64,000 bases of DNA, taken from contig NZ_CP127294.1 of assembly GCF_030285625.1 (NCBI RefSeq), forward strand, positions 9,556,001-9,620,000, written 5' to 3'. Source of the DNA: Amycolatopsis sp. 2-15 (GTDB lineage: Bacteria; Actinomycetota; Actinomycetes; Mycobacteriales; Pseudonocardiaceae). Shown here piece after piece: positions 60,597-64,000 of this stretch. Position numbers and translations under genes: made by a program. The notes under the pieces were generated by a model, which was given only the letters and a program-made list of their open reading frames with translations, had not been told where the DNA came from and searched no databases. Within the stretch, counting starts at the first letter, position 1, and each line of letters begins with the position of its first letter.

Positions 60597-61892
60597 TCAC
60601 ACGGCGACGCGGTTGCGCCCGGCGTCCTTGGCTCGGTAGAGGGCGGCGTCGGCCGAGCGCAGCACCTGGTCGAGCGTGTCGCCCGCGTCGGGGTAGCCGG
60701 CGACGCCGACGGACACCGACAGGCCGCTGACCCGCGCCGTCCCGCCGACCACCACACTCAGCTCCCCCACCGCGACGCGCACGCGCTCGGCGATGGCGAG
60801 CACGGGCGTGCCGCCGGTGGCCGGCAGCAGCACCACGAACTCTTCGCCGCCGAAGCGCCCGACCGTGTCGCTCTGGCGCACAGCCTCCGCGATCGCCACG
60901 GCGACGGCGGCGAGGACCTCGTCGCCGGTGAGGTGGCCGTAGGTGTCGTTGATGCGCTTGAAGTGGTCGAGGTCGATCATCAGGACGGCGAACTCGCTGC
61001 CGGGGCCCCGTCGGCGGGCCCGGGTGAACTCGCGCGTGGCGAGGTCGTGCCAGCCCGCGGTGTTGAGCAGCCCGGTCTTCTCGTCCGTGACCGCGGCGAC
61101 CTGCAGCTGCTGCTTCAGAAGCAGGTAGCGGTGCAGCAGAAGCAGCGGCGCCACCACGAAAACGACGAGCACGGGTTGCGCCACGAGCGCGAGCGAGGCG
61201 AGGCCGCCCAGGCACAGCGTGGCGATCTCGAAGGCGTTGTCCTCCCACGTGCCGATGAGGTCCGCGGCCTGACGGCTGCCCGTGTAGAGGTAGATGCCCG
61301 CGGCGACCAGCGCCATGTTGACCACCTCGAACACGGCCGCCGCCGCGACGAGGGCGAGCACGCCGTGCCACGTGTTGAGGGTCGCGTCGTTGAGGTGGTC
61401 GATGGTGAGCACGGAGGACGCCGCGAAGCAGCTGAGCATCGCCCACGCTGTGCTGGCGAGAAACCGGTGTGCCGGCCGCGTACGGACGCTTCGCCAGACC
61501 CGCAGCCACAGGTGCACGTAGAGGACGAGCGCCAGCAACGCCACCCACGCCGGCGGCAACAGGAAGGCACCCGCGAGGTACCAGACGGAGGTGACGTTGA
61601 TGTGCGTCTGGCCGCTCATCCACCGCCGCAGCCGCTCGATCCGCCGCGACATCTCCGCCTGCGCGATCCCGAGCACGACGAGCGTCGCGAACCACCCGAA
61701 CTGGACCGGGCCGCCGAAGTTGGTCACGAACCCGACCGCCACAGCCGTCACGGCCGCGAGCTCGCAGACCACGGCGTACGCGATCCACCTCCGCCGCGCC
61801 ACCACCCACATCCCCCACCGCGACGGCAGGCCGTCCCACTCCCGCCACGCCGCCAGCGCACCCCGGACGCCCCGGGGACCCGCTCCCAGCAT
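60597..61892 (-). CDS. Membrane diguanylate cyclase (GGDEF)
   Basis: A 431-residue protein that should make c-di-GMP. About six to seven membrane helices fill residues 35-260, followed by a GGDEF domain from about residue 270 (TDEKTGLLNTAGWHDLA, LMIDLDHFKRINDTYGH). The active site is GRFGGEEFVVLLP. An RxxD product-inhibition site (RQSD) stands five residues before GGEEF, so feedback inhibition is likely. No EAL or sensory PAS domain is seen. It is not linked to its neighbours functionally. Confidence 0.92.
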   Translation of the reverse strand: MLGAGPRGVRGALAAWREWDGLPSRWGMWVVARRRWIAYAVVCELAAVTAVAVGFVTNFGGPVQFGWFATLVVLGIAQAEMSRRIERLRRWMSGQTHINVTSVWYLAGAFLLPPAWVALLALVLYVHLWLRVWRSVRTRPAHRFLASTAWAMLSCFAASSVLTIDHLNDATLNTWHGVLALVAAAAVFEVVNMALVAAGIYLYTGSRQAADLIGTWEDNAFEIATLCLGGLASLALVAQPVLVVFVVAPLLLLHRYLLLKQQLQVAAVTDEKTGLLNTAGWHDLATREFTRARRRGPGSEFAVLMIDLDHFKRINDTYGHLTGDEVLAAVAVAIAEAVRQSDTVGRFGGEEFVVLLPATGGTPVLAIAERVRVAVGELSVVVGGTARVSGLSVSVGVAGYPDAGDTLDQVLRSADAALYRAKDAGRNRVAV

Positions 61893-61974
61893 CGTGACGC
61901 CCCTTCGGCCGACGAGGTGGCCCAGGGTAGCCGGTCAACCCTCCGCCGTCGCCGGACCGGGGGAAATCCCGGAG

Positions 61975-62451
61975 GTCTTCTGCCCCGCGGACATGGTTGG
62001 GGTAGAGCGGGTGCGCAATTCCGCGGGTGTCAGCGGCGGCGCGGTGCCCGGATGGGTTCGCGAGCCCGCCGCCCTTGGTTGTCCACGACCAAGCCGGCCG
62101 GAGATCTTGAGCCCTGCGGATGTGGTTGAGGTGGACGGGTGGGCAACTCCCGAGTCGGGTGAGGCTGTGCCCGGGCTCGCAAGCCCGCCACCCCTGGCTG
62201 TCCACAACCGAGCCGGACCGGAGATCCGGAGCCCTGCGGACATGGTTGAGGAGAGCGGGTGAGCAACTCCCGAGTCGGGTGAGGCTGTGCCCGGGTTCGC
62301 AAGCCCGCCACCCCTGGTTGTCCACAACCGAGCCGGACCGGAGGTCCTGAGCCCTGCGGACGTGGGCATTCCCGAGTCGGGTGAGGCTGTGCCCGGGTTC
62401 GCGAGCCCGCCACCCCCGGTTGTCCACAACCGAGCCGAGTTGTGGACAACC
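61975..62451. repeat. About 120-bp tandem repeat with DnaA boxes
   Basis: Four consecutive units with a period of about 120 bp: a diverged one (about 61980-62100), two nearly identical (62101-62220 and 62221-62340), and a last one about 20 bp shorter (62341-62440). Each has a CGGGyT..AGCCCG-type hairpin, and the last three also carry CCCGAGTCGGG. All end with a DnaA-box-like nonamer: 62079-62087 (TTGTCCACG), 62198-62206 (CTGTCCACA), 62318-62326 and 62420-62428 (TTGTCCACA), plus an inverted copy at 62441-62449. Frames stay open because 120 is a multiple of three, but the encoded text is low complexity and I judge it noncoding. Confidence 0.82.
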
Positions 62452-62602
62452 GGGCGTTCCGCGCCGCTTTCGCCGGGTTTCGTCGGGGTGGGCCGATAGG
62501 ATGGACAAGGGCACGCCCCCCAGGGAGGGCGGGGCTTTGCCTCCCAGGCCGCGTCGCGCCGGTCAGGCGGGGCGCAGAGCAGGTGCGGTGCAGGTACGGT
62601 CG
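62452..62602. other. Intergenic DNA between DnaA-box repeat and coxG
   Basis: No gene is seen. It contains GC-rich weak hairpins (for example GCCCC/GGGGC around 62514-62534) that could terminate coxG transcription on the minus strand. With the repeat, the gene-free span from 61893 to 62602 is 710 bp. Confidence 0.4.
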
Positions 62603-63397
62603 TCAGCGGCGGCGCAGTGCCCGGATGATCATGAAGACCACGAACAGCACCGCGGCGCCCGCGGCGACCGGGATGAGGCGTTTGGCCACGGACTGGCCCG
62701 CGTAGTCCAGGAGGTCGATGGCTTCGGTTTCGCCGGTCGAGCCACCGGAGGGGACGCTGCGGAGCTGGGGTTTCGGGGCCGCTGAGCCGGCTTCGGCGCT
62801 GTCGGCGGCGGATTGTTCGGCGAGGTCGCCCTTCGCGGCCGCTTCGGCAGCCGGAGCGGCCGAAGTCGCCGGAGCGGTCGAAACCGAGCCTGAGCCGGCA
62901 GACGCCGCGGCTGAACCAGCCCCGGCGGCGCCAGCGCCTGCACCCGCGCCGTCAGCGCGCAGTGAATCGGCCAGGTTGCCCGCGAAGGTGTCCAGCAGTT
63001 TCCCGCCCACCTCCGAGATCAGGCCGCGGCCGAACTGCGCCGGGCGGCCCGTGATGGCGATGTCGCTGCCCACGTCGCCGTGGGTGCCGCCGTCGTCGGT
63101 CGAGCGCAGCGTCACGGTCACGGTCGCCGCGGCGGTGCCGCCGCCGCGGGAGTCCTTGCCGGAGGCCTTGATGACGACCTTGCGGGCCGCCTCGTCCTTT
63201 TCTAGGAACTCGCCGGATCCCTTGTACAGCAGGGAGATCGGGCCCAGCTTGACCTTCACCGTGCCCGTGAAGGAATCGCCCTCCACCTTCGTGAGCGCGG
63301 CCCCCGGCATGCACGGGGCGACGCGCTCGGGGTCGATGACGGCCTGCCAGACCTCCTCCAGAGGCGCGGGGACGGTGAATTCGTGGTCGAGCCGCAC
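62603..63397 (-). CDS. coxG: CoxG-like SRPBCC protein with C-terminal membrane anchor
   Basis: A 264-residue protein of the carbon monoxide dehydrogenase subunit G family. Residues 1-150 form an SRPBCC fold (HEFTVPAPLEEVWQAVIDPERVAPCMPGA, then ITGRPAQFGRGLISEVGGKLL). An Ala/Ser/Gly-rich linker and a C-terminal membrane helix (LIPVAAGAAVLFVVFMIIRA) follow. By family knowledge CoxG recruits CO dehydrogenase or related molybdoenzymes to the membrane. GTG at 63397 is set by GGAGAGGAGG 7 nt upstream. It follows the coxM-type gene on the same strand. Confidence 0.85.
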   Translation of the reverse strand: MRLDHEFTVPAPLEEVWQAVIDPERVAPCMPGAALTKVEGDSFTGTVKVKLGPISLLYKGSGEFLEKDEAARKVVIKASGKDSRGGGTAAATVTVTLRSTDDGGTHGDVGSDIAITGRPAQFGRGLISEVGGKLLDTFAGNLADSLRADGAGAGAGAAGAGSAAASAGSGSVSTAPATSAAPAAEAAAKGDLAEQSAADSAEAGSAAPKPQLRSVPSGGSTGETEAIDLLDYAGQSVAKRLIPVAAGAAVLFVVFMIIRALRRR

Positions 63398-63447
63398 GGG
63401 CCGACCTCCTCTCCTTCGAACCGCAGAACCAAAAGCCAAGAACCGAT

Positions 63448-63488
63448 GAGGCCCACCTTACGGCCGCGACGGCCGAAAGGTGGGCCTC
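63448..63488 (-). terminator. Hairpin between coxM-type gene and coxG
   Basis: GAGGCCCACCTT (63448-63459) and AAGGTGGGCCTC (63477-63488) are perfect 12-bp arms around a 17-nt loop containing CGGCCG. It lies 8 bp after the coxM-type stop and upstream of coxG. It may terminate or attenuate transcription, making coxG expression lower or separate. Confidence 0.6.
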
Positions 63489-63496
63489 GTCGACAA

Positions 63497-64000
63497 TCAG
63501 GCTCCGACCGCAGCCGTCAGGGCACGGCCCGTGAGCACCCGCGCGAGGTGCTGCCGGTACTCGATGTCGGAGTTGCCGTCCGCTGCCGGGTTCGTGCCGT
63601 CGGCGGCGTGCGCGGCGGCGGCGCGGATCACGTCGGCGTTGGCCGAAGCGCCCACCAGCGCCTGTTCCACGGCGACGGCACGCACGGGCGTCGAGCCCAT
63701 GTTCGTCAGCGCCACGTGGGCCTCCTCGATCACGCCGCCCTCCGTGCGGACGGTGGCCGCGACCGCGACCATCGACCACGCCTGCGCCACCCGGGTGAAC
63801 TTCTCGTAGTGCGCGCGCCAGCCCGTGTGCTTGGGCAGGCGCACCTCCACGAGCAGCTCGTCGGGCGCCAGGGCCGTGGTGAAGAAGTCCTGGAAGAAGT
63901 CCGCCGCCGCTACCGTGCGACGGCCGCCGGGGCCGGCGATCACGAGCGAAGCTTCCATCGCCAGCACCGGCGCCGCCAGGTCGCCCGCCGGGTCGGCGTG
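63497..64000 (-). CDS. coxM: Molybdoenzyme FAD-binding medium subunit (CoxM-type), partial
   Basis: The C-terminal 167 residues of a CO-dehydrogenase/xanthine-dehydrogenase family FAD subunit; the start lies beyond the window end. The frame is open to base 64000 and begins HADPAGDLAAPVLAMEA, the usual segment after the second FAD loop. It continues VRLPKHTGWRAHYEKFTRVAQAWSMVAVAATV and ends in the typical C-terminal domain. It is probably the last structural gene of a second molybdenum hydroxylase operon followed by coxG. Whether the enzyme oxidises CO cannot be told without the large subunit. Confidence 0.88.
   Translation of the reverse strand, partial: HADPAGDLAAPVLAMEASLVIAGPGGRRTVAAADFFQDFFTTALAPDELLVEVRLPKHTGWRAHYEKFTRVAQAWSMVAVAATVRTEGGVIEEAHVALTNMGSTPVRAVAVEQALVGASANADVIRAAAAHAADGTNPAADGNSDIEYRQHLARVLTGRALTAAVGA

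Follow-up and report, generated by a model that had tools for sequence, protein, structure and literature searches.

A dispersed gene-less element of Amycolatopsis joining putative DnaA boxes to a damage-type promoter match

In the genome of Amycolatopsis sp. 2-15 (a single contig of 10,050,063 bases), positions 62413-62535 of the window (the whole 64,000-nucleotide stretch of DNA analysed here, G000:C1:9556001-9620000) are, to judge from their sequence, one copy of a dispersed gene-less element of ~123 bp. With about even weight for and against, we read this element as a damage-responsive, gene-less promoter unit that binds DnaA, its copies together acting as a DnaA reservoir near the origin that is tied to damage signalling. 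A wider reading, which we hold only tentatively and lean against, is that of a distributed system coupling replication initiation to the damage response, in which DnaA loading would gate firing, firing would reset the reservoir, and short hairpin RNAs would be made. We know of no settled account of DnaA restraint in these actinobacteria or of cross-talk from PafBC to initiation. In the element, initiation and damage signals meet on a single ~123-bp DNA that is repeated dozens of times close to the origin, in a genus whose members produce antibiotics, and its rule of helical spacing can be put to the test. Should DnaA bind, initiation and damage signalling would be physically linked through the element; if it does not, there would still be a large family of orphan damage-type promoters beside a terminator-like hairpin.

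Three parts make up the proposed unit: a pair of DnaA boxes that DnaA would bind; a PafBC-dependent, RecA-independent damage promoter at a preferred helical phase to the boxes; and a GC-rich hairpin with a T-rich stretch at the start, after which the transcript would end at ~30-45 nt. DnaA on its boxes would act from one helical face as a gate on RNA polymerase/PafBC. PafBC would be activated by single-stranded DNA arising from damage or at stalled forks, whereupon the copies would fire, giving short self-terminating transcripts, while the boxes together would act as an origin-proximal DnaA reservoir whose occupancy is linked to damage signalling. The parts, their spacing, the copy number, the closeness to dnaA, the preference for 3'-end gaps and the fact that some sites are shared with G059, the closest relative found, are all read from the sequences.

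Extent and distribution of the element

A search with the whole intergenic gap in 80 genomes of the genus (own genome included) gives matches in 66, and the part 62415-62534 recurs at many places with ~75-83% identity. An alignment of 28 copies was made into a covariance model (R1), which in the own genome finds at least 42 matches at E values up to 0.1, or 39 after removal of three echoes that overlap other matches (9618404, 2889278 and 1177866). Two of the own copies lie in opposite orientation within 2 kb of each other (L217 4238 and 6023; 1872237 and 1874022). R1 also matches in 13 of 13 further Amycolatopsis genomes, a non-random choice made mostly for good whole-gap hits and few contigs, and in at least 18 of 120 genomes of the family, covering at least 11 of the 46 genera sampled. 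Among 121 genomes of the order that were scored, at least 8 have matches, all 8 within Pseudonocardiaceae, and the element is not seen outside this family. Copy numbers are lower bounds, at most 150 candidates being scored per genome (29 in the family and order scans, 7 in the whole-gap search). A strict pattern run over the GTDB contigs finds 67 stretches, all in Amycolatopsis, Actinokineospora or Kibdelosporangium. The copies from other genomes used below are 89 of 97 matches; the eight weakest were dropped, seven of which adjoin a stronger match or overlie it on the other strand. Rfam covariance models give no match up to E 1 in window positions 61000-64000, no title or abstract among the literature matches listed describes the element, and none of the papers searched contains both 'PafBC' and 'DnaA box'.

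The initial annotation of this DNA, made from the letters alone, had centred on a tandem repeat with DnaA boxes. The repeat is there, but the conserved part is the element at its right edge, which runs on to ~62541, beyond the repeat; promoter-like and hairpin modules at 62480-62541, to the right of the feature then described, had been missed. The features of the region are collected in Table 1.

Table 1. Features in and around the gene-free gap, in window coordinates
Feature	Position	Strand	Remarks
Flanking diguanylate cyclase (GGDEF) gene	60597..61892	-	start uncertain: 61811 (own gene caller) or 61892 (longest ORF)
Tandem array, probable local duplications of [flank + left box]	61969..62439	+	steps about 120/120/102; absent in G059
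Duplicated box, 1 mismatch, TTGTCCACG	62079..62087	+	box scan
Duplicated box, 1 mismatch, CTGTCCACA	62198..62206	+	box scan
Duplicated box, exact TTGTCCACA	62318..62326	+	box scan
Element copy	62413..62535	+	covariance model R1, 126 bits; best copy in own genome; R1 built including it
DnaA box 1 (putative), exact TTGTCCACA	62420..62428	+	starts 60 bp before promoter motif
DnaA box 2 (putative), exact, inverted	62441..62449	-	starts 39 bp before promoter motif
PafBC/RecA-NDp-type promoter match, TCGTCGGGG-N8-TAGGAT	62480..62502	+	1 mismatch to TTGTCRGNG-N8-TANNNT
GC-rich hairpin at predicted start	62510..62541	+	short T run 62536-62538 inside outer stem; start inferred from -10 hexamer
Flanking CoxG-family gene	62603..63397	-	3' end faces element

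DnaA boxes, promoter and start hairpin

Most copies carry TTRTCCACA at element position 7, and the larger class adds its inverse 21 bp on. In copies of a second class the two boxes run in the same direction, 19 or ~30 bp apart, a layout with which an inverted-repeat hairpin is impossible. Counting exact boxes, the 39 own copies comprise 13 with an inverted pair, 5 with two direct boxes, 17 with one and 4 with none, and the 89 other copies comprise 26, 5, 47 and 11, respectively. Conservation of the nonamer among dispersed copies, raised in the initial annotation, is borne out, at least one exact box being present in 35/39 own and 78/89 other copies. The exact inverted pair occurs 11 times in the own genome (10 of the 11 inside R1 matches) and 67 times in seven others, and is absent from each reversed-pattern control. 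Exact TTGTCCACA occurs 147 times genome-wide (37 for the reversed pattern); 42 of the 100 listed (those below 4.39 Mb) fall in own copies, and the 39 own copies together hold 53 exact boxes. In the 64-kb window there are 20 boxes with up to one mismatch, while shuffled sequences have a mean of 5.74 and 0 of 100 shuffles reach 20.

The link to DnaA made in the initial annotation remains the best reading of these boxes. The table of high-affinity boxes in PMC4285127 gives TTGTCCACA for M. tuberculosis and S. coelicolor. The palindromic operator of a dimeric regulator is disfavoured relative to DnaA because box 1 and the direct boxes are non-palindromic and TTATCCACA variants occur among the copies. 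Domain I of actinobacterial DnaA is described as forming dimers (PMC13270200). Palindromy also counts: flank positions 2-4 beyond the boxes pair above shuffles (p 0.001, 0.002 and 0.007 over 76 inverted pairs, with kinship ignored; not significant in the 21 own pairs alone), so the inverted pair may also have a hairpin role.

The initial annotation had also held that the site is not the standard oriC, and dnaA indeed lies ~2.06 Mb away. The presumed oriC lies in the gap after dnaA, which only gene order identifies as the dnaA-dnaN gap. In the own genome this gap (1630511-1631588) contains mismatch-bearing boxes but not one exact TTRTCCACA, a single exact box being found just upstream of dnaA; the gap after dnaA in G059 (L213 6817-7864) likewise has no exact one. 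The oriC of Kutzneria albida, as given in PMC4210621, is also without exact TTRTCCACA.

To the right of the boxes, 62480-62502 (-10 hexamer at 62497-62502) is the only promoter match with up to one mismatch on either strand of the 64-kb window. In mycobacteria, the RecA-independent damage promoter has the consensus tTGTCRgtg - 8 nt - TannnT (PMC5656591) and is the target of PafBC (PMC6789036, PMC11804915), whose action is described as following single-stranded DNA binding and proceeding by sigma adaptation (PMC11804915). The own genome encodes PafB and PafC beside the Pup ligase (L307 759-2728), with WYL/WCX and HTH_PafC domains; PDB matches of the PafB are 7p5x, 9fnd and 6sj9. With the 8th position open (TTGTCRGNG-N8-TANNNT), the motif is found at up to two mismatches in 86/128 copies and in 1/128 shuffles, while 33/128 copies (11/39 own, 22/73 named) have four or more mismatches.

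Genome-wide the promoter pattern occurs 32 times (0 for the control), and the 30 loci examined divide into 12 elements and 18 non-element loci. A box with up to one mismatch lies within 120 bp upstream at 12/12 element loci and at 0/18 of the others. Behind each of the 18 stands a gene in the same orientation, in most cases no more than 250 bp away (1,117 bp in one case). Seven of these genes encode the proteasome ATPase or proteins of DNA repair, replication or dNTP hydrolysis (O6-methylguanine methyltransferase, a DnaN-like clamp, RadA, dGTPase, DNA polymerase IV and a RarA-like ATPase). No evident tie to DNA damage is seen for the remaining 11 (PadR, a beta-lactamase-fold protein, an efflux pump, PEP mutase, an M20 hydrolase, DUF3375, PPOX and four family-less proteins). 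Genes next to element copies lie on either strand at varied distances, and the element as a promoter for the next gene is rejected on that ground. The gene-linked match before the DnaN-like clamp just listed (G000:C1:2261915-2261937, L284) suggests that this second sliding clamp of the genome, which scores slightly below the NCBIfam dnaN cut-off, may be damage-induced.

The distance between boxes and promoter was counted in 95 of the 128 copies (promoter with up to three mismatches, boxes with up to one). Inverted boxes (n=87) start 39-40 bp upstream of the promoter in 70 cases, 28-29 bp in 16 and elsewhere in 1, and direct-strand boxes (n=83) start 60-61 bp upstream in 58, 49-50 bp in 13 and elsewhere in 12. 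The two main distances differ by about one helical turn. Since the intervening stretch is poorly conserved and diverges at preserved spacing, its length is better kept than its letters. The copies were found by a fixed-length model that may favour some spacings, but the same box distances recur at the 12 element loci picked up with nothing more than the promoter pattern. The two spacing classes may partly represent two related length subfamilies, but one-turn changes at single loci are harder to explain in that way: at two loci matched by their neighbouring genes, distances of 60/39 in one species correspond to 50/29 in the other.

The GC-rich hairpin at the predicted start is followed by ten T-enriched positions (bin means 0.24-0.41, compared with 0.06-0.24 in most later bins; 85 copies), and the hairpin and T-rich stretch may together act as a terminator. 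Greater stability than in same-composition shuffles is not found for this hairpin across copies (mean z -0.89) or in the window copy (z -0.52; 54/200 shuffles as stable). In four copies (L062, L080, L100/L229 and L107/L236) a shared sequence, TTTCTAG or TTTCCAC ... CAACAC or GAACAC, follows the hairpin at the same point, at the right edge of the element, and in L112, whose contig is as long as that of L080, an ORF with an rve integrase domain begins at this very point. This may reflect an insertion sequence with the hairpin as its target; no integrase was found among the own neighbours tested.

The tandem array and inheritance of the sites

The gene-free gap of 710 bp reported in the initial annotation is confirmed (61893-62602, with the GGDEF gene on its left and the CoxG-like gene on its right). 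So are its inverted box, which is exact, and the arrangement of the last two boxes as GGTTGTCCACAAC-N8-GTTGTGGACAACC at 62418-62451. The array comprises the four units described there, starting at 61969, 62098, 62218 and 62338, but not every unit ends in an intact nonamer: of the four direct boxes two are exact TTGTCCACA (62318 and 62420) and two carry one mismatch. The box-carrying parts of the units start at 62054, 62173, 62293 and 62395 (steps of 119/120/102), and Tandem Repeats Finder reports 62054-62365 with a period of 120 and 89% matches. The array itself shows no sign of special keeping of the nonamer, as its boxes are changed at 2/36 positions while two adjoining units are 92% identical. 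No second long copy of the whole array is found in the own genome.

G059 is collinear with the own genome at both flanks of the gap (93.5% identity over 4,016 columns and 90.2% over 1,404). Its gap holds a single partial unit without box and without element, and for this reason the array is best read as a probable local tandem duplication of [flank + left box], which would have added three left boxes at this site; alternatively, the array may have been lost in G059. Phasing of boxes at 120 bp, noted as unusual in the initial annotation, does not hold up as a design, being missing in G059 and apparently arising by this duplication.

Among the G059 pieces compared, 23 of the 39 own copies have a syntenic stretch and 12 have none. 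The element is common to both genomes at eight of the syntenic sites (1, 3, 5, 12, 20, 22, 28 and 33) and absent or replaced in G059 at nine (0, which is the window site, 2, 7, 14, 15, 18, 21, 26 and 30); the other six were assigned to neither group. Where the two genomes differ, they do so over entire intergenic stretches. Over six of the shared sites, boxes agree at 101/108 positions, spacers at 124/158 (p 0.0009) and flanks at 1690/2120 (p 0.0002), counts that were summed by hand over sites picked after alignment of 11 (1, 3, 5, 12, 22 and 33, leaving out 4, 27 and 34, which were not aligned as shared, 20, with a deletion, and 28, with another box layout). The deletion at site 20 in the own genome removed both boxes and kept the promoter, so the boxes appear dispensable at that site.

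Rival readings, known systems and genome position

The main rival, unlikely in our judgement though substantial, is a promoter-bearing intergenic repeat (REP-, Correia- or MITE-like) derived from a PafBC-controlled locus, with boxes that have no present replication role. Dozens of copies, diverged and partly degenerate, whose presence varies between close relatives, speak for it, as does the preference for 3'-end gaps. Judged by neighbouring genes from our own codon-usage ORF caller rather than annotation, own copies lie in 12 convergent, 24 co-directional and 2 divergent gaps (1 more inside an ORF call), as compared with 9/50/30 among other gaps of at least 140 bp (p 3e-4), and divergent positions are rare in the named copies as well (2/67 with two called neighbours, against 2/38 own). 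It explains less well that no partner gene family adjoins the copies, that no clean insertion or target duplication is seen by eye at eight differing sites, that spacing is kept though the sequence between boxes and promoter diverges, that spacing changes by one turn at two loci, and that copies cluster around dnaA. A mobile element with a partner gene is set back by the same lack of clean insertion and by the lack of a dominant shared neighbour family among 94 of the 117 neighbour proteins. A family of terminators or 3'-end punctuation, in which the two palindromes would terminate the neighbouring transcripts and any resemblance to boxes and promoter would be incidental, seems improbable to us. 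The named copies speak for it, with 43 convergent, 22 co-directional and 2 divergent gaps (6 more at the edge of or inside an ORF call) compared with 13/46/48 for other gaps (p 6e-14), and with 24/48 plus-strand left genes ending -10 to +7 nt from the element start; the T-rich stretch after the hairpin and the pairing beyond the boxes agree with it. In G059, by contrast, 16 copies show no significant gap preference (6/8/2 compared with 5/14/10 for other gaps, p 0.16). Direct-box copies keep their boxes though a left hairpin is impossible there, the right hairpin is no stabler than shuffles, and the promoter match is far above shuffles, with the same motif preceding genes; a pure hairpin or terminator reading is set back by the first two of these points.

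The two proposals of the initial annotation on the array fare worse. A single datA/DARS-like control locus has in its favour several DnaA boxes in one gap, and we consider it very improbable for a site that is one of dozens of copies, where a mismatch is present in two of the four array boxes and neither array nor element occurs in the corresponding G059 gap. That the boxes were spread by chance within a repeat is scarcely credible; the duplicated array alone, without special keeping of its boxes, would fit, but inverted pairs number 11 and 67 against 0 in the reversed-pattern controls. Against the preferred reading of a DnaA-binding damage promoter unit stand the 4/39 own copies without an exact box and the 17 with just one, the 11/39 own and 22/73 named copies with at least four promoter mismatches, the loss of boxes with retention of the promoter at site 20, the pairing beyond the boxes that makes a hairpin role possible, the ordinary stability of the start hairpin, the several gene-linked promoters before genes without evident damage tie, the weak replication polarity (119 compared with 80) and the 9/23 syntenic G059 sites without the element.

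REP/BIME, Correia and similar intergenic repeats, some of which bear promoters or protein sites, resemble the element in being short, dispersed, palindromic and placed at gene 3' ends. The element differs from them in its DnaA-box pair at a preferred helical phase to a damage promoter, in its clustering around dnaA and in having no mobile partner seen among 94 neighbour proteins. Like datA and DARS1/DARS2 of E. coli and the DnaA-box clusters near oriC of B. subtilis and S. coelicolor (PMC4585315), the element has boxes that are intergenic, outside oriC and better kept than the spacers. Unlike datA and DARS1/DARS2, it occurs in dozens of small copies rather than at one or few loci, has no single conserved position (the window site is empty in G059), has two boxes rather than a core of three, and is joined to a damage-type promoter. 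With the mycobacterial PafBC (RecA-NDp, P1) promoters (PMC5656591, PMC6789036, PMC11804915) it shares the motif TTGTCRGNG-8 nt-TANNNT, in a genome that encodes PafB and PafC beside the Pup ligase and has the same motif before its own DNA-repair genes. It departs from them in that no gene follows it at a constant distance, its predicted start carries a hairpin and T-rich stretch, and a DnaA-box pair is present upstream, which the 18 gene-linked motif loci lack.

Position relative to dnaA was compared for 199 hits (150 of 299 listed, 39 own and 10 of G049). For these listed hits, which come from 13 genomes, the distance from dnaA is within half of the maximum in 169 cases and never exceeds 0.7 of it, and of the exact pairs in seven further genomes 63/67 lie within half and 29 in the nearest tenth, some genome lengths being rounded in these counts. 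In the own genome the 39 copies have a median distance of 0.86 Mb, compared with 2.30 Mb for 20 gene-linked motifs (Mann-Whitney p 1.5e-4). PMC4210621 describes, for a related genus, a conserved core surrounding oriC, and part of the clustering may be due to such a core. By orientation, 119 of the 199 listed hits are co-directed with replication and 80 are not, the copies being non-independent, and a strong strand polarity is rejected.

Two further sites differ in their make-up. At G000:C1:1540413-1540455 (L247) there are three exact TTGTCCACA, including an inverted pair, and no promoter motif within two mismatches in the surrounding 600 bp, so that the site has boxes only. At a variant site, G000:C1:1646901-1647030 (L238), ~15 kb from dnaA, TTATCCACA boxes stand with a -10-like hexamer and a GC hairpin in an otherwise different layout; with 127/130 positions identical in G059, it is the best conserved of the sites compared.
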